From: Maribacter spongiicola | GTDB taxonomy: Bacteria; Bacteroidota; Bacteroidia; Flavobacteriales; Flavobacteriaceae | Assembly: GCF_004364165.1 (NCBI RefSeq) | Contig: NZ_SOAY01000011.1 | Coordinates: 124,001-188,000, forward strand | Direction: 5' to 3' | Length of the DNA stretch: 64,000 bases | Part shown: piece after piece, positions 18,166-30,661 of the stretch | Numbering within the stretch: the stretch's first letter is position 1 | Layout of the letters: every line of letters starts with the position of its first letter | Translations under genes and position numbers: made by a program | The notes under the pieces: generated by a model | What the model saw: only the letters and a program-made list of their open reading frames with translations | Told to the model about the DNA's origin: nothing | Databases searched by the model: none

Positions 18166-18272
18166 CACGCTGTTTATTAAACGTATATATATGAAGTTGA
18201 ACGATATTAATCTAATACTAAGTTATTATAGGTTTTTTTTGTAAAGTAAAATTGAATTTGTTCAGTTATAAA

Positions 18273-21200
18273 ATGTTAAAGATGAAAAGAAATTACCTAT
18301 TGAACTTAAATACCATAAAACAATCTGCTTTAGTTATAGGTATAACTGGTTTTGTTTTTATGGCTCTGAGTTTTGGTCCTACTTTTATGGGGCCTGGTCT
18401 TAGTATAGTGGACGTAGAATCATTTGATATTGAGGTTAATACTAATTTCCCCGTAAGTGGCGTAGGAGCACCTGCTTTCGCGCCTGCTTTTCCTAACTTA
18501 CAGTTTGATTCGCCAATCACGTTTAATCCTGTACCCAATGATAACAAAATCGTTGTTGGGCAATTGAACGGTGAAATTTATTGGATAGATGATAATAATA
18601 ATGCCGCACAGGAAAATCTAATTGTCAATTGGTCTGCTGAAATAGGCGACCGTAACGAAGGAGCCGTTTGGGACGGTGGATTTTTGGGATTGGCGATACA
18701 TCCGGATTTTGGAGTAGATAATACGAAAAATTTCTTTTTTGTGTACTACACCACCAATGCTGCCAACAATGCTTTGGGCAATTCACAAGGGTTTTCTTGT
18801 GGAAAGGAAGATTTCAGTGGTAACTATTTGTTGTTGGAGCGCTTTGAAGTAGACCCAGCTACTATGTTACTTGTTCCAGGTAGTCGAGAAATCATGATAC
18901 GCAGAGAATTATATAATACTACCCACCGTGGTGGTGGCATGACTTTTGGACCGGACAATTATTTATATCTTACTACTGGTGATCAAGCAAGCTATTCGCC
19001 TGCACAGGACATTGCAAATAACTTGGACGGAGGGGTGTTGCGTTTGGATGTTGATATGATTGGTGGTACAGTAAGTCATCCCCCTAAAAGATTTTTACAA
19101 GATCCAGGTGTTGGTAATACGAATACGGGTACCCCTGGCTTTCTTGCTAGTGAAGGTTTAGAAACTTCCGGCGAATTTTATTTTATCCCAAATGACAATC
19201 CTTTTAATGTTCCATTAACCGATGTTACCAGTCCTGTATTTGAAGAATACTATACTATTGGTCACCGAAGTCCGCATCGTTTAACTATGGACACTGCTAC
19301 CGGAGATTTATATATTGGTGAAGTTGGGGAATCTACGCATGAAGAAATAAATGTATTGCGTAATGTTCCTGAAACTGCAGGTAATAATTATGGTTGGCCT
19401 CTATGGGAGGGAAATGCACCGCATACACGAAATTGTGGTCTTACCCAATTATACAACAATGCACCTCATGAAGGTCCTTTAACTGATTTTGTTCGTGACC
19501 AGGCAGGTTCAATCATAGGTGGTTATGTATATAATGGTAGTATTGCGCAATACCAGGGGCGTTATATCGCCGCTGATTATTTAACGAATCAGCTTTTTGC
19601 TATTAACACTCAAGGGGGTAGTAAAGAAAGTTTAGGCGTAGGTCCTGGACAAGTTATATCTTTTGGTCAGGATACTAGTGGGGAACTTTACATGCTTACT
19701 TTAGGTGCTGGTGGGGATAGCGGAATTTTTCGTTTAACAGAATCAAGCACATTACCTGCTCCTGCATTATTATCAGATACGGGTGTATTTAATACGGGTG
19801 CATTAAATGATTTCTCGGATATTCAAGAATTAAGCACAACCTCTGGTTTTGTACCTTACGAAATGATTGAATCCTTTTGGTCTGATGGTGCTTTGAAAAG
19901 AAGATGGATTGGAGTACCAAACGATGGTACGCACAACACACCGGCCGAACAAGTAGAATGGACCGAGAATGGTATTTGGAACTTCCCTGATGGCTCTGTA
20001 ATTATAAAGCATTTTGATTTTCCTATTGATGAGGCTGCAACGCCTACCACACGTAAAATTGAGACACGTTTTTCAATTAAAGCAGATAATGGTGAATTTT
20101 ATTTTTTGACTTATAAATGGAGGGCAGATGAATCAGATGCCGAATTGGTAGATATGAGAATTGGCGACACGGCTACAATCAACGTAACTCGTGGCGGTGT
20201 TCCAGATACTGTAGATTGGTTATACCCTTCTAATGCACAATGCATCCAATGCCATAGCCCTGCATTGGGTGGTACTTTAGGTTTGCGTACTCGAAATTTG
20301 AATAGTAATTATGATTATTCTACGCATGACCCCGACGGAGAAGTTGGAAACCAATTAGTTACTCTTAGTGAAATGGGTATTTTAAATGTAAACATTACTG
20401 ATAGCGATACGCCAGGATATTTGACTCATATAGCTATCGACGATTTAAATGGTTCTACCGACGAAAAGGCGCGTTCTTATTTAGACAATAATTGTGCTTA
20501 TTGTCATCAGCCGGCTACAGGTAATGGTTCAGAAATAGATTTACGACTAATCAATACCTTAGCTCAAACGGCGATGCTTACGGCTACAGGTAATAATATT
20601 CCTGGAGAACCTACGATTAATCGCATTGTGGTTCCTGGAGACGCAGCCAATTCACAATTATACCACCGGGCCAACAGCTTAACGGCAGGTGTGAAAATGC
20701 CTCCTGTATCCAAGGGAATTGTAGATGCCGAGGGCGTAGCTTTACTTCAACTTTGGATAAATGGGCTGCAAGAACCTGCTGATGTGCCTGCTTTAGGTAC
20801 TTATCGCTTGGTGAATTTTGAGACCAAGGGTACCTTGGGAGTAGCCGACGGGGAGAATCAGCTTGGTGCGAATGCTGTAGAGCAAGGGTATCAAGGGTTG
20901 GATTATCAACATTGGGTGTTGGAGAATGCAAGTACTACTAATTTTTACAGGTTTACTCCAGTGTTTAGTGCACGTTACCTTGACGTTAATGGAAGACCTG
21001 CTGATGCAGACTTTCAAGAAAATGTTTGGATATGGAATAATGATCCTAATACTTTCGCACAGCAATGGGAGATAATTCCAGATGATATCATTGATGGTAT
21101 TCAGACCTATTTTATAATCAGCCGTGTAAATGGTGATTACCTCACATTAGAATCTAATGGCAACGTTGCTGTTTTAACATATGATCTTAATAATATAAAT

Positions 21201-24200
21201 CGTTTTAGATGGCAATTTGAAACTCCGAGTGCAACGCCTTTGACATTTGGGTTAGAATTGAGCAAAACGGTAGTTGTTACTAACGAAGGTGGTTTAGCAG
21301 ACAATTTTAATGTCTCGCTTAGTGACGCACCAGCATCCGATGTAGTGATTGACATTACGCAAACAGGTGAAGTTGATGAATTCGTTGTAGCGCCTGCAAC
21401 ATTGATATTTACCGCAACTAACTGGGCAACACCTCAAGTGGTTACAGTTACAGGGCAAGACGATGCAGATGATGATTGCGTTCAATATTTTGGTATTGGT
21501 GTAGTTGTAAATTCTGCTCTTAGTGATGCAAATTACGCTGGTTTTTCTAAAAGCCTAGAAGGCTATAATGAAGACGATGAAGGTAGTTTGGCATGTCCAC
21601 CTACATCAGGTATTTATCGTTTAGTAAATGTTGGCAACAATCAATCTATGGAGGTCGCTGCAGCAGGTTTGGCGTGGCGAGATAATATAGAGACTGGACT
21701 ATACGAAGGCGCTTCACATGAGCAGTTTGAGCTTATTTTTAGAGGTGACGGTCTTTACGCTCTAGTGGCTCAGAATAGTGGTTTGGCAATAGATGTACAG
21801 GGAGGTGTAACTACGCCAAATACGAATGTTTGGCAGTATGATTATGCTGAAAACACCAATAATTTGGCGCAATTATGGCGTATTGTCGGTGATGGTACAG
21901 GTCAATTTTCTATTATAAGTGAGCGGGGAGGTCATTATTTAGGTGTCTCGACCGGAACTAATAATGTATATGTAAACATAAATGATGGTAGCGACCGCTA
22001 TAAATGGCGTTTTGAGGATATCAGCCAGTTGAGCAATGCGGGTGTGAACATTACTCCAGAATTGGTCTATACAGATGAAGATGGTGATACAGATTCTTTT
22101 GACGTAGTCTTAAGTAGCGCGCCTACGGGGGATGTGAATATTGGAATCAATGTTTTAATGAATGCCGATGAAATTAATTTGGATATTACGCAACTTGTAT
22201 TTACGACCACAAATTGGGATACACCTCAAACGGTTACTGTAACTGGATTGGATGATTTGGACGCCGATGGCGTGCAGGAATTTGAAATCGAGGCAGTTGT
22301 GGTTGCTCCATTCAACGATGCCACATACATCGCAGGTGTTGGAACTACAATATCAGGTTTTAACTATGATAACGATGGTGGCGATAATGGAGCACCAAGG
22401 CCTGGAATCTACCAACTGCGTAATTCAGGGAATGGGGAGAATTTAATGCCCATTGCTGGGGCCAACGTTTGGCAGACTAATATGGTAACAGGGGAATACC
22501 TTAACGAAGAGTATCAACATTTTGAGTTGGTAGCTGCTATAAACGGTCTTTACAGATTGAAATTAGTGGTTCCTGATCCAACAAGGGGTGACTTATATTT
22601 GGATAAGCAGGGAGGTCCATCAAATCCTAATACCAATATTTGGTCCTATCCATCTTTAAGTCCAGATCCTAATTTTGCCCAACTATGGGATATTGTGGAG
22701 GCTGGCGACGGTAGTTATTACATTATCAGTGCTATTGCAAATGCCAACTTTACCAATAACACGTATTTGAGGGCAGAGGATGCTTCGGGTACAGAGGGTA
22801 ATGTAAGCATTGCGACTGATGATACCACCGATTTCTTTAAATGGCAGTTCTTGGGAACAGGTTTTGCTCCTGTAGCAATTTCATCAGCAGATGTTCTAAC
22901 AGGTAATGAAGACCTTACGGTACAATTTTCTAGTGCTGGTTCTACCGATGACAAAAATGATATAGTGTCTTATCTATGGGATTTTGGTAATGGTGATACT
23001 TCAAATGAAGCTAATCCAGAATATACATTTGAAGATGGTGGTTCATATAATGTTATTTTAACAATTGAAGATGGTGACGGTTATACAGATGTTGCCGATA
23101 CTATAATCATTGATGTTAATGGAGCACCTGTTGCTGTGGCATCTTCTGATTTGAATGGAGGTGAAGCTACTATTGATATTTCATTTACTGGTGATCTTTC
23201 TACAGATGACGTAGGTATTGCGTCTTATTTATGGACATTCGAGCCAGGGGAAACATCTGCAGTTGCAAACCCAGTTTATACATTTACTACGGTAGGAGTT
23301 TACAATGTTACTTTAACAGTAACCGATGCTGGTGGTTTAGAAGACACAACAACATTAGAAATAACGATAACCGCGCCTAATCAAGCTCCGGTTGCAGTTG
23401 CATCTTCAAATGTTACGGGTGGTATTGTTCCTCTTGAAGTTGAATTTACTGGAGATCAATCTACAGATGATGTAGGGGTTGAAACTTATTTATGGACGTT
23501 CGAGCCAGGTGAAACTTCCGCCGATGCAAATCCAACTTATACCTTTAATGATATAGGTGTCTATACAGTAGAATTAACAGTTACCGATATAGAAGGACTA
23601 GAGAGCACAACGACAATTGATATTACCGTAACAGCGGACAATCAAGCTCCAGTTGCTGTTGCCTCTTCTAATGTAATTACAGGTGATGCACCTTTAGAAG
23701 TTCAATTTACTGGTAATCAGTCAACTGATGATGTAGGTGTAGTATCTTATTTGTGGACATTTGAACTTGGTGAAACATCAATAGAGGCTAACCCAACGTA
23801 TATATTTGCTACAGAAGGTACATATACAGTTACTATGGTGGTAACCGATGCTGGTGGTTTAGAAGATGCTACGACTGTTGAAATTATAGTGAATGCAGAT
23901 CAAACTCCTGTTGCCGTTGCCTCAGCTAGCGTGACACAAGGTGATGCGCCTTTAGAGGTTCAGTTTACCGGTGATCAATCTGCAGGTGTAAATGATATTG
24001 TTTCATATGCTTGGGATTTTGGTAATGGTGATACATCGACAGAGGCAAACCCAACATATACTTATAATACTCCTGGGATGTTTATTGCAACGTTAATTGT
24101 TACGGATAGTGAAGGGTTAACAGGAACATCTACTATTGAGATTACTGTTAATGGTGTTGTTGGAGATAATCCTACAGCTGTGGCTTCAGCTGATGTTACT

Positions 24201-25235
24201 AGTGGAGATGCGCCTTTAGATGTTCAGTTTACAGGAGATCAATCAACAGGTGTAAATGATATTGTTTCATACGCTTGGAATTTTGGTAATGGTGTAACAT
24301 CAACAGAGGCGAACCCAACATATACTTATAATACTCCGGGTACGTACAATGCAACTTTAATAGTTACGGATAGTGAAGGGTTAACCGGAACATCTACTAT
24401 TGAGATTACCGTTGGTGGTGTTGCGGTTGATAATCCTACAGCTGTTGCTTCAGCTGATATTACTAGTGGAGAAGCTCCGTTAGTGGTATCGTTTATTGGA
24501 GATCAATCTACAGGAGTTAATGATATTGTTTCATATGCATGGGACTTTGGTGATGGTGAAACATCAACAGATGCAAATCCTACGTACGTTTATAATACGC
24601 CAGGTACATTTGTAGCAACATTAATTGTTACCGATAGCGAAGGGTTAACCGGTACATCTACTGTAGAAATCACTGTAACGGGTGGTGTTAATTTAGCGCC
24701 AATTGCTGTAATTTCTTCAAGTGTTGAAATAGGGGAGGCTTTAGTTGAAATTATTTTCACAGGTGATCAGTCTAGTGATGATACCGAGATTGTGTCATAT
24801 GCTTGGAATTTTGGAGATGGTAGTACTTCAGATGAAGTTAACCCAGTTCATACTTTTGCTGAGCCTGGTACATATACAATTACGTTGATAGTTATAGATA
24901 ATGGAGATTTAGTTGGTGAGACTAGTATAGCACTACAGGTGCTTGATGAAAAAACTGTACTTGAAAATGATGATTTCGAAGTAGTATTATCACCAAATCC
25001 ATCTGTTGATTTTGTAGAGGTTTCGTTCTCTGGAGATTTTAATATGGATGATGTAATCGGATTAATGATCCATGATATGAGTGGTAGATTAATAAGAAGA
25101 TACATGCCAGAAGAAATAGCAGATGATAATAAATTTAGAATTTCAACTGCAATTTTTAATAACGAAGTGTATGTGATAACATTGGTAATGAATAGTCAAG
25201 AACCAATTTCTAAAAGGTTGGTTATTAATAAATAA
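18273..25235 (+). CDS. Giant secreted GSDH / two-CxxCH cytochrome c / ricin-lectin / PKD protein with T9SS tail
   Basis: About 2320 residues. A signal-anchor-like N-terminus (ALVIGITGFVFMALSFGP) precedes a GSDH propeller (about 60-490; THRGGGMTFGPDNYLYLTTG, IGHRSPHRLTMD, IGEVGESTHEEINVL, NNYGWPLWEG). Next comes a c-type cytochrome region (about 500-830) with haem motifs CIQCH (20241-20255) and CAYCH (20493-20507), of the SO2930 diheme type. Three ricin-type trefoil domains follow (about 20796-21215, 21605-22015, 22400-22855), separated by two Calx-beta-like modules. Then come eight PKD domains (22866-24940) and a T9SS sorting domain (about 24955-25235, LSPNPSVDFVEVSF). The likely role is oxidation of a bound surface or environmental sugar with electrons passed to the haems; the substrate and PQQ use are inferred. 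Start uncertain: TTG 18252, ATG 18273 and ATG 18282 are all in frame. Confidence 0.85.
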   Translation: MLKMKRNYLLNLNTIKQSALVIGITGFVFMALSFGPTFMGPGLSIVDVESFDIEVNTNFPVSGVGAPAFAPAFPNLQFDSPITFNPVPNDNKIVVGQLNGEIYWIDDNNNAAQENLIVNWSAEIGDRNEGAVWDGGFLGLAIHPDFGVDNTKNFFFVYYTTNAANNALGNSQGFSCGKEDFSGNYLLLERFEVDPATMLLVPGSREIMIRRELYNTTHRGGGMTFGPDNYLYLTTGDQASYSPAQDIANNLDGGVLRLDVDMIGGTVSHPPKRFLQDPGVGNTNTGTPGFLASEGLETSGEFYFIPNDNPFNVPLTDVTSPVFEEYYTIGHRSPHRLTMDTATGDLYIGEVGESTHEEINVLRNVPETAGNNYGWPLWEGNAPHTRNCGLTQLYNNAPHEGPLTDFVRDQAGSIIGGYVYNGSIAQYQGRYIAADYLTNQLFAINTQGGSKESLGVGPGQVISFGQDTSGELYMLTLGAGGDSGIFRLTESSTLPAPALLSDTGVFNTGALNDFSDIQELSTTSGFVPYEMIESFWSDGALKRRWIGVPNDGTHNTPAEQVEWTENGIWNFPDGSVIIKHFDFPIDEAATPTTRKIETRFSIKADNGEFYFLTYKWRADESDAELVDMRIGDTATINVTRGGVPDTVDWLYPSNAQCIQCHSPALGGTLGLRTRNLNSNYDYSTHDPDGEVGNQLVTLSEMGILNVNITDSDTPGYLTHIAIDDLNGSTDEKARSYLDNNCAYCHQPATGNGSEIDLRLINTLAQTAMLTATGNNIPGEPTINRIVVPGDAANSQLYHRANSLTAGVKMPPVSKGIVDAEGVALLQLWINGLQEPADVPALGTYRLVNFETKGTLGVADGENQLGANAVEQGYQGLDYQHWVLENASTTNFYRFTPVFSARYLDVNGRPADADFQENVWIWNNDPNTFAQQWEIIPDDIIDGIQTYFIISRVNGDYLTLESNGNVAVLTYDLNNINRFRWQFETPSATPLTFGLELSKTVVVTNEGGLADNFNVSLSDAPASDVVIDITQTGEVDEFVVAPATLIFTATNWATPQVVTVTGQDDADDDCVQYFGIGVVVNSALSDANYAGFSKSLEGYNEDDEGSLACPPTSGIYRLVNVGNNQSMEVAAAGLAWRDNIETGLYEGASHEQFELIFRGDGLYALVAQNSGLAIDVQGGVTTPNTNVWQYDYAENTNNLAQLWRIVGDGTGQFSIISERGGHYLGVSTGTNNVYVNINDGSDRYKWRFEDISQLSNAGVNITPELVYTDEDGDTDSFDVVLSSAPTGDVNIGINVLMNADEINLDITQLVFTTTNWDTPQTVTVTGLDDLDADGVQEFEIEAVVVAPFNDATYIAGVGTTISGFNYDNDGGDNGAPRPGIYQLRNSGNGENLMPIAGANVWQTNMVTGEYLNEEYQHFELVAAINGLYRLKLVVPDPTRGDLYLDKQGGPSNPNTNIWSYPSLSPDPNFAQLWDIVEAGDGSYYIISAIANANFTNNTYLRAEDASGTEGNVSIATDDTTDFFKWQFLGTGFAPVAISSADVLTGNEDLTVQFSSAGSTDDKNDIVSYLWDFGNGDTSNEANPEYTFEDGGSYNVILTIEDGDGYTDVADTIIIDVNGAPVAVASSDLNGGEATIDISFTGDLSTDDVGIASYLWTFEPGETSAVANPVYTFTTVGVYNVTLTVTDAGGLEDTTTLEITITAPNQAPVAVASSNVTGGIVPLEVEFTGDQSTDDVGVETYLWTFEPGETSADANPTYTFNDIGVYTVELTVTDIEGLESTTTIDITVTADNQAPVAVASSNVITGDAPLEVQFTGNQSTDDVGVVSYLWTFELGETSIEANPTYIFATEGTYTVTMVVTDAGGLEDATTVEIIVNADQTPVAVASASVTQGDAPLEVQFTGDQSAGVNDIVSYAWDFGNGDTSTEANPTYTYNTPGMFIATLIVTDSEGLTGTSTIEITVNGVVGDNPTAVASADVTSGDAPLDVQFTGDQSTGVNDIVSYAWNFGNGVTSTEANPTYTYNTPGTYNATLIVTDSEGLTGTSTIEITVGGVAVDNPTAVASADITSGEAPLVVSFIGDQSTGVNDIVSYAWDFGDGETSTDANPTYVYNTPGTFVATLIVTDSEGLTGTSTVEITVTGGVNLAPIAVISSSVEIGEALVEIIFTGDQSSDDTEIVSYAWNFGDGSTSDEVNPVHTFAEPGTYTITLIVIDNGDLVGETSIALQVLDEKTVLENDDFEVVLSPNPSVDFVEVSFSGDFNMDDVIGLMIHDMSGRLIRRYMPEEIADDNKFRISTAIFNNEVYVITLVMNSQEPISKRLVINK
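22866..24940 (+). repeat. Eight tandem PKD-domain repeats (about 255-270 bp each)
   Basis: Repeats start near 22866, 23121, 23386, 23641, 23905, 24172, 24433 and 24703, each beginning P(V/T/I)A(V)xSS/SA and holding a W-x-F-x3-E/D-T/G-x-TS core. Units 2-4 share STDDVG...YLWTFE; units 5-7 share STGVNDIVSYAW and are nearly identical in DNA, pointing to recent tandem duplication. Confidence 0.85.
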
Positions 25236-25858: not shown

Positions 25859-28800
25859 ATGAAAAATTATCACCGGGTTCAACTTTTAATTATCTTCTTA
25901 CTTGTATTTTTGACGAGCTTTAGTCCAATGTTGTTTGGACCTGGTATTAGCGATGCCGAACCAATCGGTAAATTCTTAAATGGAAATTTTCAAGGCTTAG
26001 CAAGTAATGATCAACCTTATGTGCCTGCATATCCCAACTTAAGATTTGATTCACCCTTAAATTTTACTACCATACCAAATCAGCTGCGTATTGTGGTTGG
26101 TCAAAGAGATGGTAAAGTTTATTGGTTTGATGATAATGAAGATGCTACAGTAAAGAACTTAGTAGTAAACCTATCCAATGAAGTTGGGGTTGTTTGGGAT
26201 GGAGGATTTTTAGGACTTTCAATTCATCCCTCTTTTGGAACCTCAGGAAAGAATTTTTTCTATATTTATTATTCTACTAAATCTCCTGACACTACTTTAA
26301 ATTCACCATTAGGTTTTTCCTGTGGTATAGAGCGTTTTCATGGAAATTATCTTGTTTTGGAACGTTTTGAGGTTAATCCCATCAACTTATCATACGTCTC
26401 TGGTTCCCGGTTCACTATGCTTAAAAGACGCATGTATAATACATCGCATCGGGGAGGAGGTATGGAATTTGGTGATGATCAATTTTTATATCTTTCTACA
26501 GGAGATCAAGCTGCTTATATAAATGCGCAAAGTATTTCAGAAAACTTGGATGGAGGTGTTCTCAGGATTGATGTAGACATGGTAGGTGGATCTTTGAGTC
26601 ACGCTCCAATTAGAACAATGTCATCATCAGACGCAGGTGAAGAAGATGAAGTTTCTGGTAAAGGTTATTTTATACCTAACGACAATCCTTTCAACAATTC
26701 GAATGGTAGCGTATTTGAAGAATATTATTCTTTGGGGCATAGAAACCCCCATCGTTTGACAAAAGATAGGGCTACCGGAACTTTTTATATAGGAGAGGTA
26801 GGGGAAAATACCCATGAGGAAATAAATGTGCTTGCAGCTGGTAAAAATTATGGTTGGCCACTTTATGAAGGAAAAGACATTTTTTTAAATAGTTGTATTT
26901 CCGAGTTATATAATAATATGCCACACCAAGGTCCTTTGACAGAATTCCCTAGATCAGATGCTAATTCAATCATTGGGGGGTATGTTTATCGAGGAACTGA
27001 AATTCCCGAGTTAGAGGGGAAATATATTTGTGCGGATTATGGTATTGGAGATGAAATTTGGGCGGTGAATACTACAACCGGTCAATATGAGCTTTTGGGT
27101 AATTTTGGGCCTGAGAATATAATTTCCTTTGGTCAGGATTATCAAGGAGAGTTGTATTTACTTAAATATGGCGCTAATGTCAATTTATATAAATTGGCAG
27201 CAACAGGGATAAGCAATATTAATGTGCCCCAGTTGTTATCTCAAACAGGCGCTTTTTCGAACTTGCAGAGCCTAACTGTAAATAGTGGTATTATCCCCTA
27301 CGATATGATTGATTCTTTTTGGTCAGATGGAGCTTACAAAAAGCGATGGATGGCCATTCCAAATGATGGTACCCATAATACGTTAGAAGAACAGATTGTT
27401 TTTTCAGAGAATGGGGTTTGGGATTTTCCAACTGGTGCGGTATTGATAAAACATTTTGATTACCCAATAGATGACACTAATCCTAATGCTACTAAAAAAA
27501 TGGAAACTCGTTTCTCGGTAAAAGGTGATGATGGTAAGTTTTATTTTTTTACATACAATTGGAACAATTCTCAAACAGATGCGGTTTTACAAGAAATTGG
27601 TTTAGATGAGACTATTCAGGTCGCTACGGTTGACGGTGGAATTAGACAAGAAACTTGGCACTTTCCATCCAATAGCGAGTGTATAAGTTGTCATAATGTT
27701 ACTTCTAAAGGAACCTTGGGACCAAGAACTCGTTATTTGAACAGGGATTATGATTATGCTAATCATTCTTCTGGTGGAGTTATGGCAAATCAATTAGTGA
27801 CATTAAGCCATTTAGGTATATTAAATGAAACAATTACAGATGGAGATACTCCTAGCTTTTTAACTCATACATCCATCGATGATGTCAATGGCAGTATTGA
27901 AGATAAAGCAAGATCTTATTTGGATTTGAATTGTGCATACTGTCATCAACCGGCTACAGCAAACAGGGCTAATTTTGATTTACGATTATTTAATTCATTG
28001 TCTGAAACGGGTCTTTTAACTGCTGGAATGAATGAAACATTGAATGGTTTACCATCAAATCAAAGAATTGTGTATCCAGGAGATGCCTCAAAATCACAAT
28101 TATTTCATAGAACTGCAAGTACAAATATGTCTATAATGATGCCTCCTTTGGTCAAAGAAAAATCAGATTTAAATGGTGTAGCACTTATAGAAACATGGAT
28201 TAATCAAATGGAAGTACCGGTGAATACTCCACAGTTAGATAATTATCAAATTGTTAACAGAAATTCTGGGTTGACATTACAAGTTTCTGATGCAGGACTA
28301 ATCAACCAAAGTAATATAATGGTAGGGGGATATCAAGATTTGCCAAATCAACAATTCGAGCTCGAATTAGTTGATAATGGTTATTTCCAATTTAAGAATT
28401 TAAATAGTGGATTATATTTAGATGTGGCTTGGGCGAGTATAGCTCCAAATACAAATGTATGGCAATACACAGGAAATAGCTCTGATGCTCAATTGTGGGA
28501 ATTACGAAGTACCGGTGATGGGGCATTTCATATAGTTAGTAAACTCAGTGGACACTATCTAGGAGTTCAGCCAAATAATAATGTAGCTGTATTTCCTGAT
28601 ACCGGAGATAATATAGTCGAATGGGAATTTTTGAGTTTGGATGCACAAACTACCCTTACGGTATCTTCTATTTCAAACCGCATCAGTGTAGAAGGGGAGG
28701 AATCTGCTTTCACAGTGAATACGCAGGGGGGTGATCCATTACAGCCGATTTCATTCTCCGCGACAGGTCTTCCCGCCGGCATTTCCATATCTGGCACTAC

Positions 28801-30661
28801 GGGTGTTGTTTCGGGTATACTTTCGACAGGTACCGCCTTGGGCGGGGCCGCCGCTGACGGACATTATCTTGTAGGTATCACCGTAACGCGCGGCACCGAA
28901 TCCGCTGTGGAAGATTTCGAATGGCAGGTTACGACCGGTATCGTAGTTCCCCCGGTGGATAGCGATGTGGTTTTCCGAATCAAGTCCGCTGGTCCAACGG
29001 TGCCGTCAACCGACGGAGGTCCCGATTGGCTCGGGGGAGCTCCCAGTGGAGCTCACAGCGGTACGGGGTATAGTGTGAACACCGGTGTTTCCGCGCCGGC
29101 CACGGGTATGCTCTATGTTGACCGTGACCCGTCCATACCTTCCTATATAGATCAAACGACCTACGGTTCTTTGTTCTCGCACGAAAGGTGGGACGGTCCC
29201 GGCGCCCCTGAAATGCAATACTCCGTTCCGCTTCCCAATGGCGATTATAGGGTGAACATATATGTTGGCAACTTCTGTACGTGTACGGACGAGGTGGGCG
29301 AGCGTGTGTTCGGCATAACGGTCGAGGGCAATGTAGTTCGAAATGGGCTTGACCTTATCACTGAGTTCGGGCACCGCTCTGGCGGTATGCTGAGCTATCC
29401 TGTTACTGTGTCCGACGGGTCCTTACAGATAGGTTTCCTTCATGGTACGGAGAACCCTATTGTGAACGCCATCGAGATTATGGGTACTACGGAGCCACAG
29501 ATTCATGATGCACTTACGGTATCTTCTATTTCAAACCGTATCAGTGTAGAAGGGGAGGAATCTACTTTCACAGTGAATACACAGGGCGGTGATCCATTAC
29601 AACCGATTTCGTTCTCCGCGACGGGTCTTCCCGCTGGCATTTCCATATCTGGCACTACGGGTGTTGTTTCCGGTATACTTTCGACGGGTGCCGCCTTGGG
29701 CGGTCCCGCCGCTGACGGACTTTATCTTGTAGGTATCACCGTAACGCGCGGCTCCGAATCCGCTGTGGAAGATTTCGAATGGCAGGTTACGACCGGTATC
29801 GTAGTTCCCCCGGTGGATAGCGATGTGGTTTTCCGAATCAAGTCCGCTGGTCCAACGGTGCCGTCAACCGACGGAGGTCCCGATTGGCTCGGGGGAGCTC
29901 CCAGTGGAGCTCACAGCGGTACGGGGTATAGTGTGAACACCGGTGTTTCCGCGCCGGCCACGGGTATGCTCTATGTTGACCGTGACCCGTCCATACCTTC
30001 CTATATAGATCAAACGACCTACGGTTCTTTGTTCTCGCACGAAAGGTGGGACGGTCCCGGCGCCCCTGAAATGCAATATTCCGTTCCTCTACCCAATGGA
30101 GATTATAGGGTGAACATATATGTTGGCAACTTCTGTACGTGTACGGACGAGGTGGGCGAGCGTGTGTTCGGCATAACGGTCGAGGGCAATGTAGTTCGAA
30201 ATGGGCTTGACCTTATCACTGAGTTCGGGCACCGCTCTGGCGGTATGCTGAGCTATCCTGTTACTGTGTCCGACGGGTCCTTACAGATAGGTTTCCTTCA
30301 TGGTACGGAGAACCCTATTGTGAACGCCATCGAGATTATTTCAGTAAAAAATTCTGGCTTGCAATTGAAAACTAAAATTATTGATGATACATCTGAAATA
30401 AAAGACATATTAATTTATCCAAATCCGGTTAGTTCGGGAGAAACACTATTTATAAATTTGAAAAGTGCCTTGAATGATAAGCCAATGGTACTTGAATTAT
30501 ACAATATATTTGGAAGCAAGATTAAACAACGAGAATATCAAGTAACTAATACGAATGTTTTAGAATTTGTGATAGATAATAATATAGCTGTAGGTGTTTA
30601 TATAATTAATGTAAGAGTAGGCGATAGTATTGTTAAAACGCAAAAAATAATTGTTAAATAG
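25859..30661 (+). CDS. Secreted GSDH / two-CxxCH cytochrome c / ricin / duplicated Ig-malectin protein with T9SS tail
   Basis: The 1600-residue paralogue of the preceding gene starts with a signal-like hydrophobic stretch (LLIIFLLVFLTSFSPMLFGP). The GSDH propeller covers about 50-455 (SHRGGGMEFGDDQFLYLSTG, LGHRNPHRLTKD, IGEVGENTHEEINVL, GKNYGWPLYEG). A cytochrome c region (about 460-790) carries CISCH (27680-27694) and CAYCH (27932-27946). One ricin-type lectin domain follows (about 795-925). Then come two near-identical units of Ig-like plus malectin-like domain (DVVFRIKSAGPTVPSTDGG and YSVPLPNGDYRVNIYVGNF). A T9SS sorting domain ends the protein (about 1510-1600, IYPNPVSSGETLFINL). The accessory part is much more GC-rich than the rest. 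It is probably a carbohydrate-binding surface dehydrogenase; substrate unknown. Confidence 0.85.
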   Translation: MKNYHRVQLLIIFLLVFLTSFSPMLFGPGISDAEPIGKFLNGNFQGLASNDQPYVPAYPNLRFDSPLNFTTIPNQLRIVVGQRDGKVYWFDDNEDATVKNLVVNLSNEVGVVWDGGFLGLSIHPSFGTSGKNFFYIYYSTKSPDTTLNSPLGFSCGIERFHGNYLVLERFEVNPINLSYVSGSRFTMLKRRMYNTSHRGGGMEFGDDQFLYLSTGDQAAYINAQSISENLDGGVLRIDVDMVGGSLSHAPIRTMSSSDAGEEDEVSGKGYFIPNDNPFNNSNGSVFEEYYSLGHRNPHRLTKDRATGTFYIGEVGENTHEEINVLAAGKNYGWPLYEGKDIFLNSCISELYNNMPHQGPLTEFPRSDANSIIGGYVYRGTEIPELEGKYICADYGIGDEIWAVNTTTGQYELLGNFGPENIISFGQDYQGELYLLKYGANVNLYKLAATGISNINVPQLLSQTGAFSNLQSLTVNSGIIPYDMIDSFWSDGAYKKRWMAIPNDGTHNTLEEQIVFSENGVWDFPTGAVLIKHFDYPIDDTNPNATKKMETRFSVKGDDGKFYFFTYNWNNSQTDAVLQEIGLDETIQVATVDGGIRQETWHFPSNSECISCHNVTSKGTLGPRTRYLNRDYDYANHSSGGVMANQLVTLSHLGILNETITDGDTPSFLTHTSIDDVNGSIEDKARSYLDLNCAYCHQPATANRANFDLRLFNSLSETGLLTAGMNETLNGLPSNQRIVYPGDASKSQLFHRTASTNMSIMMPPLVKEKSDLNGVALIETWINQMEVPVNTPQLDNYQIVNRNSGLTLQVSDAGLINQSNIMVGGYQDLPNQQFELELVDNGYFQFKNLNSGLYLDVAWASIAPNTNVWQYTGNSSDAQLWELRSTGDGAFHIVSKLSGHYLGVQPNNNVAVFPDTGDNIVEWEFLSLDAQTTLTVSSISNRISVEGEESAFTVNTQGGDPLQPISFSATGLPAGISISGTTGVVSGILSTGTALGGAAADGHYLVGITVTRGTESAVEDFEWQVTTGIVVPPVDSDVVFRIKSAGPTVPSTDGGPDWLGGAPSGAHSGTGYSVNTGVSAPATGMLYVDRDPSIPSYIDQTTYGSLFSHERWDGPGAPEMQYSVPLPNGDYRVNIYVGNFCTCTDEVGERVFGITVEGNVVRNGLDLITEFGHRSGGMLSYPVTVSDGSLQIGFLHGTENPIVNAIEIMGTTEPQIHDALTVSSISNRISVEGEESTFTVNTQGGDPLQPISFSATGLPAGISISGTTGVVSGILSTGAALGGPAADGLYLVGITVTRGSESAVEDFEWQVTTGIVVPPVDSDVVFRIKSAGPTVPSTDGGPDWLGGAPSGAHSGTGYSVNTGVSAPATGMLYVDRDPSIPSYIDQTTYGSLFSHERWDGPGAPEMQYSVPLPNGDYRVNIYVGNFCTCTDEVGERVFGITVEGNVVRNGLDLITEFGHRSGGMLSYPVTVSDGSLQIGFLHGTENPIVNAIEIISVKNSGLQLKTKIIDDTSEIKDILIYPNPVSSGETLFINLKSALNDKPMVLELYNIFGSKIKQREYQVTNTNVLEFVIDNNIAVGVYIINVRVGDSIVKTQKIIVK
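28655..29481 (+). repeat. Ig-malectin module, copy 1 of a tandem duplication
   Basis: This 827-base unit recurs at 29513-30339 with an offset of exactly 858 bases (286 codons). It encodes an Ig-like domain (SSISNRISVEGEESAF) and a malectin-like sugar-binding domain. Codon use is markedly GC-richer than in the flanking parts of the same gene. Confidence 0.93.
29513..30339 (+). repeat. Ig-malectin module, copy 2 of a tandem duplication
   Basis: Second copy of the unit at 28655. In the Ig-like part I count about five amino-acid changes; in the malectin part the protein is identical and base differences are few and silent, such as those clustered near 30079-30102. The unit boundary is followed directly by AT-rich sequence of the T9SS tail. 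Confidence 0.93.

Follow-up and report, generated by a model that had tools for sequence, protein, structure and literature searches.

The stretch of DNA analyzed here (the window) comprises 64,000 nucleotides (nt) of Maribacter spongiicola (contig NZ_SOAY01000011.1, positions 124,001 to 188,000) and contains, at 25859–30661, a gene in which a cassette of an immunoglobulin-like (Ig; He_PIG) domain and a malectin domain occurs twice. The genome, which we call G000, has 4.46 Mb in 18 contigs, and the window lies in its contig C2; the genomes, contigs, and loci used for comparison carry similar handles (G, C, and L numbers). The gene and its parts are listed below, with the G+C content of third codon positions (GC3) for several of them.

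25859–30661, + strand: whole open reading frame (ORF), encoding a 1600-amino-acid (aa) protein exported by the type IX secretion system (T9SS), with the domain order GSDH, diheme-cytochrome-like, ricin-type lectin, He_PIG plus malectin twice, sorting tail.
25859–28654, + strand: AT-rich part (the body) with the GSDH, cytochrome-like, and ricin-type domains; GC3 0.247.
28655–29481, + strand: cassette copy 1 (He_PIG 28655–28951, malectin 28952–29482).
29221–29242, + strand: patch with four silent differences (partner 30079–30100), flanked by 325 and 239 difference-free bases.
29483–29512, + strand: unique linker of 30 nt separating the copies; GC3 0.30.
29513–30339, + strand: cassette copy 2 (He_PIG 29513–29809, malectin 29810–30340).
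30341–30661, + strand: AT-rich T9SS type A tail; GC3 0.178.

Malectin (PF11721) scored 114 bits against a gathering score of 23 and GSDH (PF07995) 117.1 bits against 25, both above threshold, as was the T9SS type A sorting domain TIGR04183 (31.4 bits, NCBIfam cut-off 23). The Pfam model of the T9SS tail, PF18962, stayed below its threshold (25.5 versus 27 bits), and the cytochrome-like part is a relative, not a member, of the SO2930-family diheme cytochromes (TIGR03806; 223.7 bits against an NCBIfam cut-off of 313.3). Judged from these domains, the product would be an exported sugar dehydrogenase carrying sugar-binding modules. GSDH, malectin, He_PIG (PF05345), and the T9SS tail are all known families, and nothing unusual was apparent in the protein chemistry; the novelty of the cassette is its base composition, not its protein domains.

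As the first-pass annotation of this sequence had noted, an 827-nt unit lies twice in one frame (28655–29481 and 29513–30339) at a spacing of 858 nt, and the presence of two near-identical units supports the tandem duplication it proposed. The copies are 97.7% identical, in line with the few differences described. Fifteen of the 19 differing sites fall in the Ig part (28681–28895; 10 silent, 5 amino-acid changing) and four in malectin, all of them silent and confined to 22 nt (29221–29242 versus 30079–30100), so that the malectin proteins are identical and their silent changes clustered, again as first described. The two longest difference-free runs sum to 564 nt, a value reached by none of 100,000 random placements. 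Such clumping is the mosaic pattern expected of conversion tracts, with parts overwritten at different times. Gene conversion that homogenized the copies is a better reading than the domain shuffling, caught in the act, that had been suggested. The assembly resolves both copies, with 19 differences and the unique 30-nt linker, and DNA and protein searches of the same genome for further copies matched just these two. An assembly or sequencing artefact is extremely improbable: although N gaps or contig ends occur inside such arrays in related assemblies, and some arrays contain frameshifts or stops, more than ten separate assemblies show the pattern, the copies differ at definite sites, and their flanks are distinct.

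The G+C content is 0.361 in the body, 0.53 in Ig, 0.54–0.55 in malectin, and 0.265 in the tail; the corresponding GC3 values are 0.247, 0.455–0.475, 0.565–0.588, and 0.178, which bears out the reported GC-richness of the cassette relative to the gene parts around it (0.46–0.59 versus 0.25 before and 0.18 after). Across 286 ORFs of more than 200 aa from 464 kb of the same genome, mean GC3 is 0.284 (standard deviation 0.052, maximum 0.488). The top 80-codon window lies in the cassette and has a GC3 of 0.64; the next gene reaches 0.59, and the 99th percentile is 0.488. The GC3 of the cassette is thus far beyond the range of the genome sample, and a composition normal for this genome was rejected. 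The switch in composition had been described as sharp at both ends. This holds at the 3′ end, where GC3 drops from 0.56 to 0.15, but the 5′ step is graded, with values of 0.17, 0.30, 0.42, and 0.56 across approximately 130 codons.

We regard GC-biased gene conversion between the copies as the probable, and best, explanation of the GC-rich cassette. Through gene conversion, in which direct repeats undergo RecA-type exchange, the tandem copies would repeatedly overwrite each other. Mismatches arising during exchange would be resolved to G:C more often than to A:T, and the repeatedly converted DNA would rise to, and then hold, a G+C content far higher than the AT-rich equilibrium that mutation sets in the remainder of the gene. 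We infer biased mismatch resolution, as opposed to GC-biased mutation coupled to recombination, as the cause; which enzymes take part, and what the pair in the window has gone through, are likewise inferred.

The first-pass annotation had instead proposed import of the module from a higher-GC donor. Horizontal import of GC-rich modules, possibly several times and followed by local duplication, fits a GC3 that lies so far outside the genome range. We searched for a donor in samples of 299 Flavobacteriaceae and 395 phylum genomes, in a pattern scan of an 84,980-species collection, which reaches close relatives only, and in 72,556 plasmid records. Relatives of the module were found in 58 of the 299 and 56 of the 395 genomes (own genome included), at approximately 55% identity at best. 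The best matches, approximately 50–55% identical, lie in Flavobacteriaceae with an AT-rich surrounding gene, namely G164 and G304; the latter is M. caenipelagi, of the same genus as the window, with the matching locus on NZ_SNZW01000016.1. No higher-GC donor was found: the pattern scan, within its reach of close relatives, gave two Actinobacteria matches of 35–41%, the best match outside the family among the sampled phylum genomes was 44% identical, and the best plasmid match was 42%. The proposed donor thus has no counterpart among the sampled genomes and plasmids, which argues against import. GC-richness as a property of malectin modules per se was rejected, because most flavobacterial malectins in the fetched loci, which represent part of the matching genomes, have a GC3 similar to the rest of their own gene. 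Raised modules among the fetched loci are those of the window, G304 (with G302 by a fragment), G164, and G098; the G321 module is GC-rich as well, like most of the gene that contains it.

In a tree of malectins (the trees of malectins and of GSDH bodies were quick searches without bootstrap), those of G000, G304, G164, and G321 form one clade, with a support of 98 in the Shimodaira–Hasegawa-like approximate likelihood ratio test (SH-aLRT). Among these four, silent mismatches between strong (S, G or C) and weak (W, A or T) bases reach 90–104% of the expectation under independence in five of six pairs and 69% in the sixth. Despite these near-saturated silent positions, the clade keeps a GC3 of 0.51–0.78. 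Because silent sites are near-randomized and GC3 is still high, the GC-richness is maintained and not decaying. A long-resident import would have decayed under the AT-rich pressure of the host, unless separate imports came from one unsampled GC-rich donor clade, which could also produce the single clade seen here. The same data contradict the "very recent" origin given in the annotation, and we rejected a recent GC-rich import given the missing donor, the near-independence of silent S/W states, and the nesting of GSDH bodies among AT-rich relatives described below. In G098, which belongs to another genus, a malectin with raised GC3 (0.51) has a 192-nt partner piece that is 95% identical and sits inside a supported clade of AT-rich malectins. 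In a malectin gene of this genome cut by the contig start (L062, G098:C13:1-2895), GC3 is 0.52, 0.43, and 0.24 at copy identities of 95%, 81%, and 68%, respectively.

Whole GSDH bodies are GC-raised in G307, G321, and G305. The first two, which are sister species, each carry adjacent GSDH genes (a and b) whose bodies match at 99.0% of 2820 nt in G307 and at 99.93% of 2835 nt in G321, compared with 81% between the genomes. Copies that are more alike within than between genomes evolve in concert, as expected of ongoing conversion in both. The G307 pair has a difference-free run of 2606 nt, with all 28 differences at the two ends; the G321 pair has a run of 2820 nt and 2 differences. GC3 steps stand at the edges of the shared sequence: in the "a" genes it is 0.26–0.27 before the shared segment, 0.51–0.84 within it (in the windows listed), and 0.20–0.23 just after; beyond the segment, the Ig and malectin part of the "b" genes is still GC-rich. 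In the tree of bodies, those of G307/G321 and G305 fall, strongly supported, inside groups of AT-rich Flavobacteriaceae sequences; their GC therefore rose in place, as far as sampled relatives show. In the GC-rich G305 body, a shift in first and second codon positions (GC1/GC2) and in amino acids is clear. Upstream of the G307 GSDH genes lies a repeated stretch (L080:9608-10213) whose translation suggests a putative tandem tRNA-like sequence. The window itself holds a relative of these genes:

18252–25235, + strand: upstream paralogue with GSDH and ricin-type domains and a PKD array, whose diverged repeats are approximately 66–83% identical and have a GC3 of approximately 0.2.

The body of this paralogue falls into the same clade as the duplicated bodies of G307/G321, and its PKD repeats, diverged and not GC-raised, provide an internal control.

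The strongest contrast was seen in G299, in a pair of genes with cytochrome-like, PKD, FG-GAP, and ASPIC domains that lie 2.7 Mb apart and share 2776 nt (2.8 kb) at 85.8% identity:

L265, G299:C1:596500-601500: first gene of the pair.
L266, G299:C1:3291500-3298500: second gene of the pair.

GC3 of the shared segment is approximately 0.88, against approximately 0.3–0.4 in neighboring ORFs. In one gene, GC3 is 0.31 for the unique N-terminal part and 0.88 for the shared one, jumping from 0.23 to 0.85 across the homology edge; in the other the edge is blurred, with a GC3 of 0.63 already ahead of it. Within the pair, GC3 correlates with local identity across 19 windows (Spearman 0.83 for one copy, 0.65 for the other), so that GC3 tracks copy identity within genes. 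The nearest homolog among the fetched ORFs, at 63% aa identity, has a GC3 of 0.26. A dependence of GC3 on local identity inside a pair is not predicted by import, and both the G299 pair and the GC-rich GSDH bodies have AT-rich nearest relatives among the compared sequences.

GC3 also tracks copy identity between genes. We scanned ORFs of at least 250 aa with at least 60 codons per class and at least 60 unique codons, measuring repeat identity within one fetched locus; distant copies are missed by this measure, the G299 pair is outside the resulting rows, and the size filter dropped smaller pieces, including two raised G311 pieces and one G307 piece. In Maribacter, where 36 loci gave 51 rows, the GC3 excess of the repeat over the unique part of the same ORF correlated with copy identity (Spearman 0.80; 0.85 when hand-reduced to about one row per gene, 36 rows). 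The mean excess was +0.23 at identities of at least 88% (21 rows) and −0.02 at 60–75% (21 rows), and all 14 rows with a mean identity of at least 95% were raised (+0.11 to +0.46). Six types of domain are represented among these 14 (He_PIG/malectin, F5/8 type C, GSDH-cytochrome body, Big_2, PKD, and an unnamed domain). Import would require separate acquisition of at least six domain types that are, by coincidence, the duplicated ones, and we consider it unlikely.

Many GSDH-type genes of the genus show sharp GC3 steps, which fall in differing domains, for example F5/8 type C in G318, G329, G311, and G300; a domain that we label LamG-like, with no Pfam hit, is raised in G323 and G328. A non-GSDH gene of G307 with near-identical Big_2 repeats shows the same contrast, and weaker ones were seen in a G312 PKD array (+0.20) and a duplicated G315 domain (+0.18). 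Most GC-raised segments have a near-identical copy in their own genome, with exceptions in G305, G300, and G321. The raised GC3 of G307c and G314 was dropped as an anomaly, being uniform and equal to the neighborhood. N gaps or contig ends lie inside or beside GC-rich repeats in several related assemblies (L077, L079, L080, and L105), and short-read genomes therefore probably show too few such arrays. In G329, G311, G307, and G299 (L094, L099, L080:6326-9184, and L265), GC-rich arrays are interrupted by apparent frameshifts or stops. In G329, transposase-like ORFs, so labeled from their translation, at G329:C1:1457132-1458479 have a GC3 of 0.52–0.66 against a genome sample mean of 0.38; here transposition confounds.

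The same correlation would arise under reverse causation, with GC-rich DNA being the better exchange substrate and staying identical while AT-rich repeats drift apart, and single-copy GC-rich segments do exist (G300 and G305). This explanation leaves the origin of the GC-richness unaccounted for, near-identical AT-rich arrays exist, and GC-richness of the G307/G321 body is confined to the duplicated lineage, among AT-rich relatives; we judge it rather improbable. Selection for GC-ending codons (for mRNA structure, translation speed, or stability of exported repeats) would fit the exported-type modular proteins found in the cases scanned for domains. Yet homologous domains lacking a near-identical copy are at baseline: near-identical copies of a G323 domain have a GC3 of 0.54–0.59 (genome sample 0.27) and diverged copies of the same domain in G305 0.26–0.38 (genome sample 0.39), and most fetched flavobacterial malectins are likewise not raised. 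The G307/G321 steps, moreover, lie within a single gene, where the duplicated segment starts and stops. Codon selection is accordingly very unlikely.

Several observations weigh against GC-biased conversion. In a G323 adhesin array, units approximately 90% identical have a GC3 of approximately 0.19, whereas the other two arrays of the same gene reach 0.36–0.42 (genome sample 0.27). This main counterexample is a 3449-aa ORF (L135 7696-18042, G323:C1:207696-218042), called adhesin-like from its repeats, with three arrays at approximately 0.38, 0.19, and 0.39. Repeats in G330 (+0.05) and G319 (+0.02 and −0.07) barely deviate. In other genera, two of seven near-identical rows are clearly raised (G164 +0.28, G098 +0.16), the rest lying between 0.00 and +0.06, and the correlation over 22 rows is not significant (rho 0.27). 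No near-identical partner was found in their own genomes for the G305 body, the G300 F5/8 type C domain, or the G321 malectin (fragmented assembly). The 51 rows are not independent of one another phylogenetically, one gene family supplies most of the loci, and the sampled stretches of the four genomes had been picked to contain a GSDH gene. The G307 a/b differences comprise 13 S>W, 7 W>S, 6 neutral, and 2 ambiguous changes, and GC1/GC2 show no clear rise in G307/G321 over their sisters. Polarized third-position changes between G318 and G329, few in number, include 6 S>W and 1 W>S fixed in the array, compatible with plain decay; changes still varying among copies of the array are 6 S>W and 1 W>S, and those in the body 10 S>W and 19 W>S. 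The exceptions might reflect duplications that are recent, partners since lost, arrays collapsed in assembly, or repair peculiar to a lineage.

Taken together, segments read as converted are GC-richer than their flanks, synonymous sites included, with counterexamples in G323, G330, and G319, and GC3 tracks conversion intensity, measured as local identity, in the G299 windows and between loci, the relation being weak and not significant outside the genus. For the wider proposition we see an even chance, that is, that in Maribacter and some relatives strongly GC-biased ectopic conversion, between copies in tandem or megabases apart, builds within-gene islands with a GC3 of 0.5–0.9 in genomes of approximately 0.27–0.39 and holds them over near-saturated divergence.

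The existence of GC-biased gene conversion (gBGC) in bacteria is disputed: Lassalle et al. 2015 (PMC4450053) put forward the bacterial gBGC hypothesis and, according to the abstract, compared the GC content of genes with signs of recombination in a range of clades, and Ely 2021 (PMC8153448) takes a contrary view on recombination keeping bacterial GC up. Within-gene steps supply an internal control in the form of unconverted flanks, and the same domain occurs converted and unconverted in related species, which would make bacterial gBGC directly testable. If true, our reading suggests a rare local footprint of gBGC in bacteria, and a share of the GC-anomalous islands of AT-rich bacteria that are currently taken for foreign DNA would have arisen in place, as traces of recombination; the pattern would caution against taking GC anomalies as horizontal transfer. 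Among the papers listed in literature searches of a collection lacking most subscription papers, none was, judged by title and abstract opening, on GC-rich homogenized repeats within bacterial genes.

GC-biased gene conversion has been described for mammalian gene pairs under concerted evolution (PMC2720389) and, reportedly, for X-palindromes (PMC8981503). As in the mammalian pairs (PMC2720389), concertedly evolving segments of paralogs are GC-richer, notably at third positions, than the diverging parts of the same genes; unlike them, the present system is bacterial, involves tandem modules as well as neighboring and distant paralogs, and shows GC3 contrasts of up to approximately 0.57 (G299). 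Ely 2021 (PMC8153448) asks whether recombination sustains the GC content of bacteria; the Maribacter pattern differs in being AT-rich, ectopic, and local. As in the study by Lassalle et al. (PMC4450053), intragenic recombination is tied to higher GC in bacterial genes. The main text of that study makes no mention of paralogs, duplication, tandem, ectopic, or flavobacteria, and unlike there, the contrast reported here is seen within individual genes and between the copies that a single genome carries.
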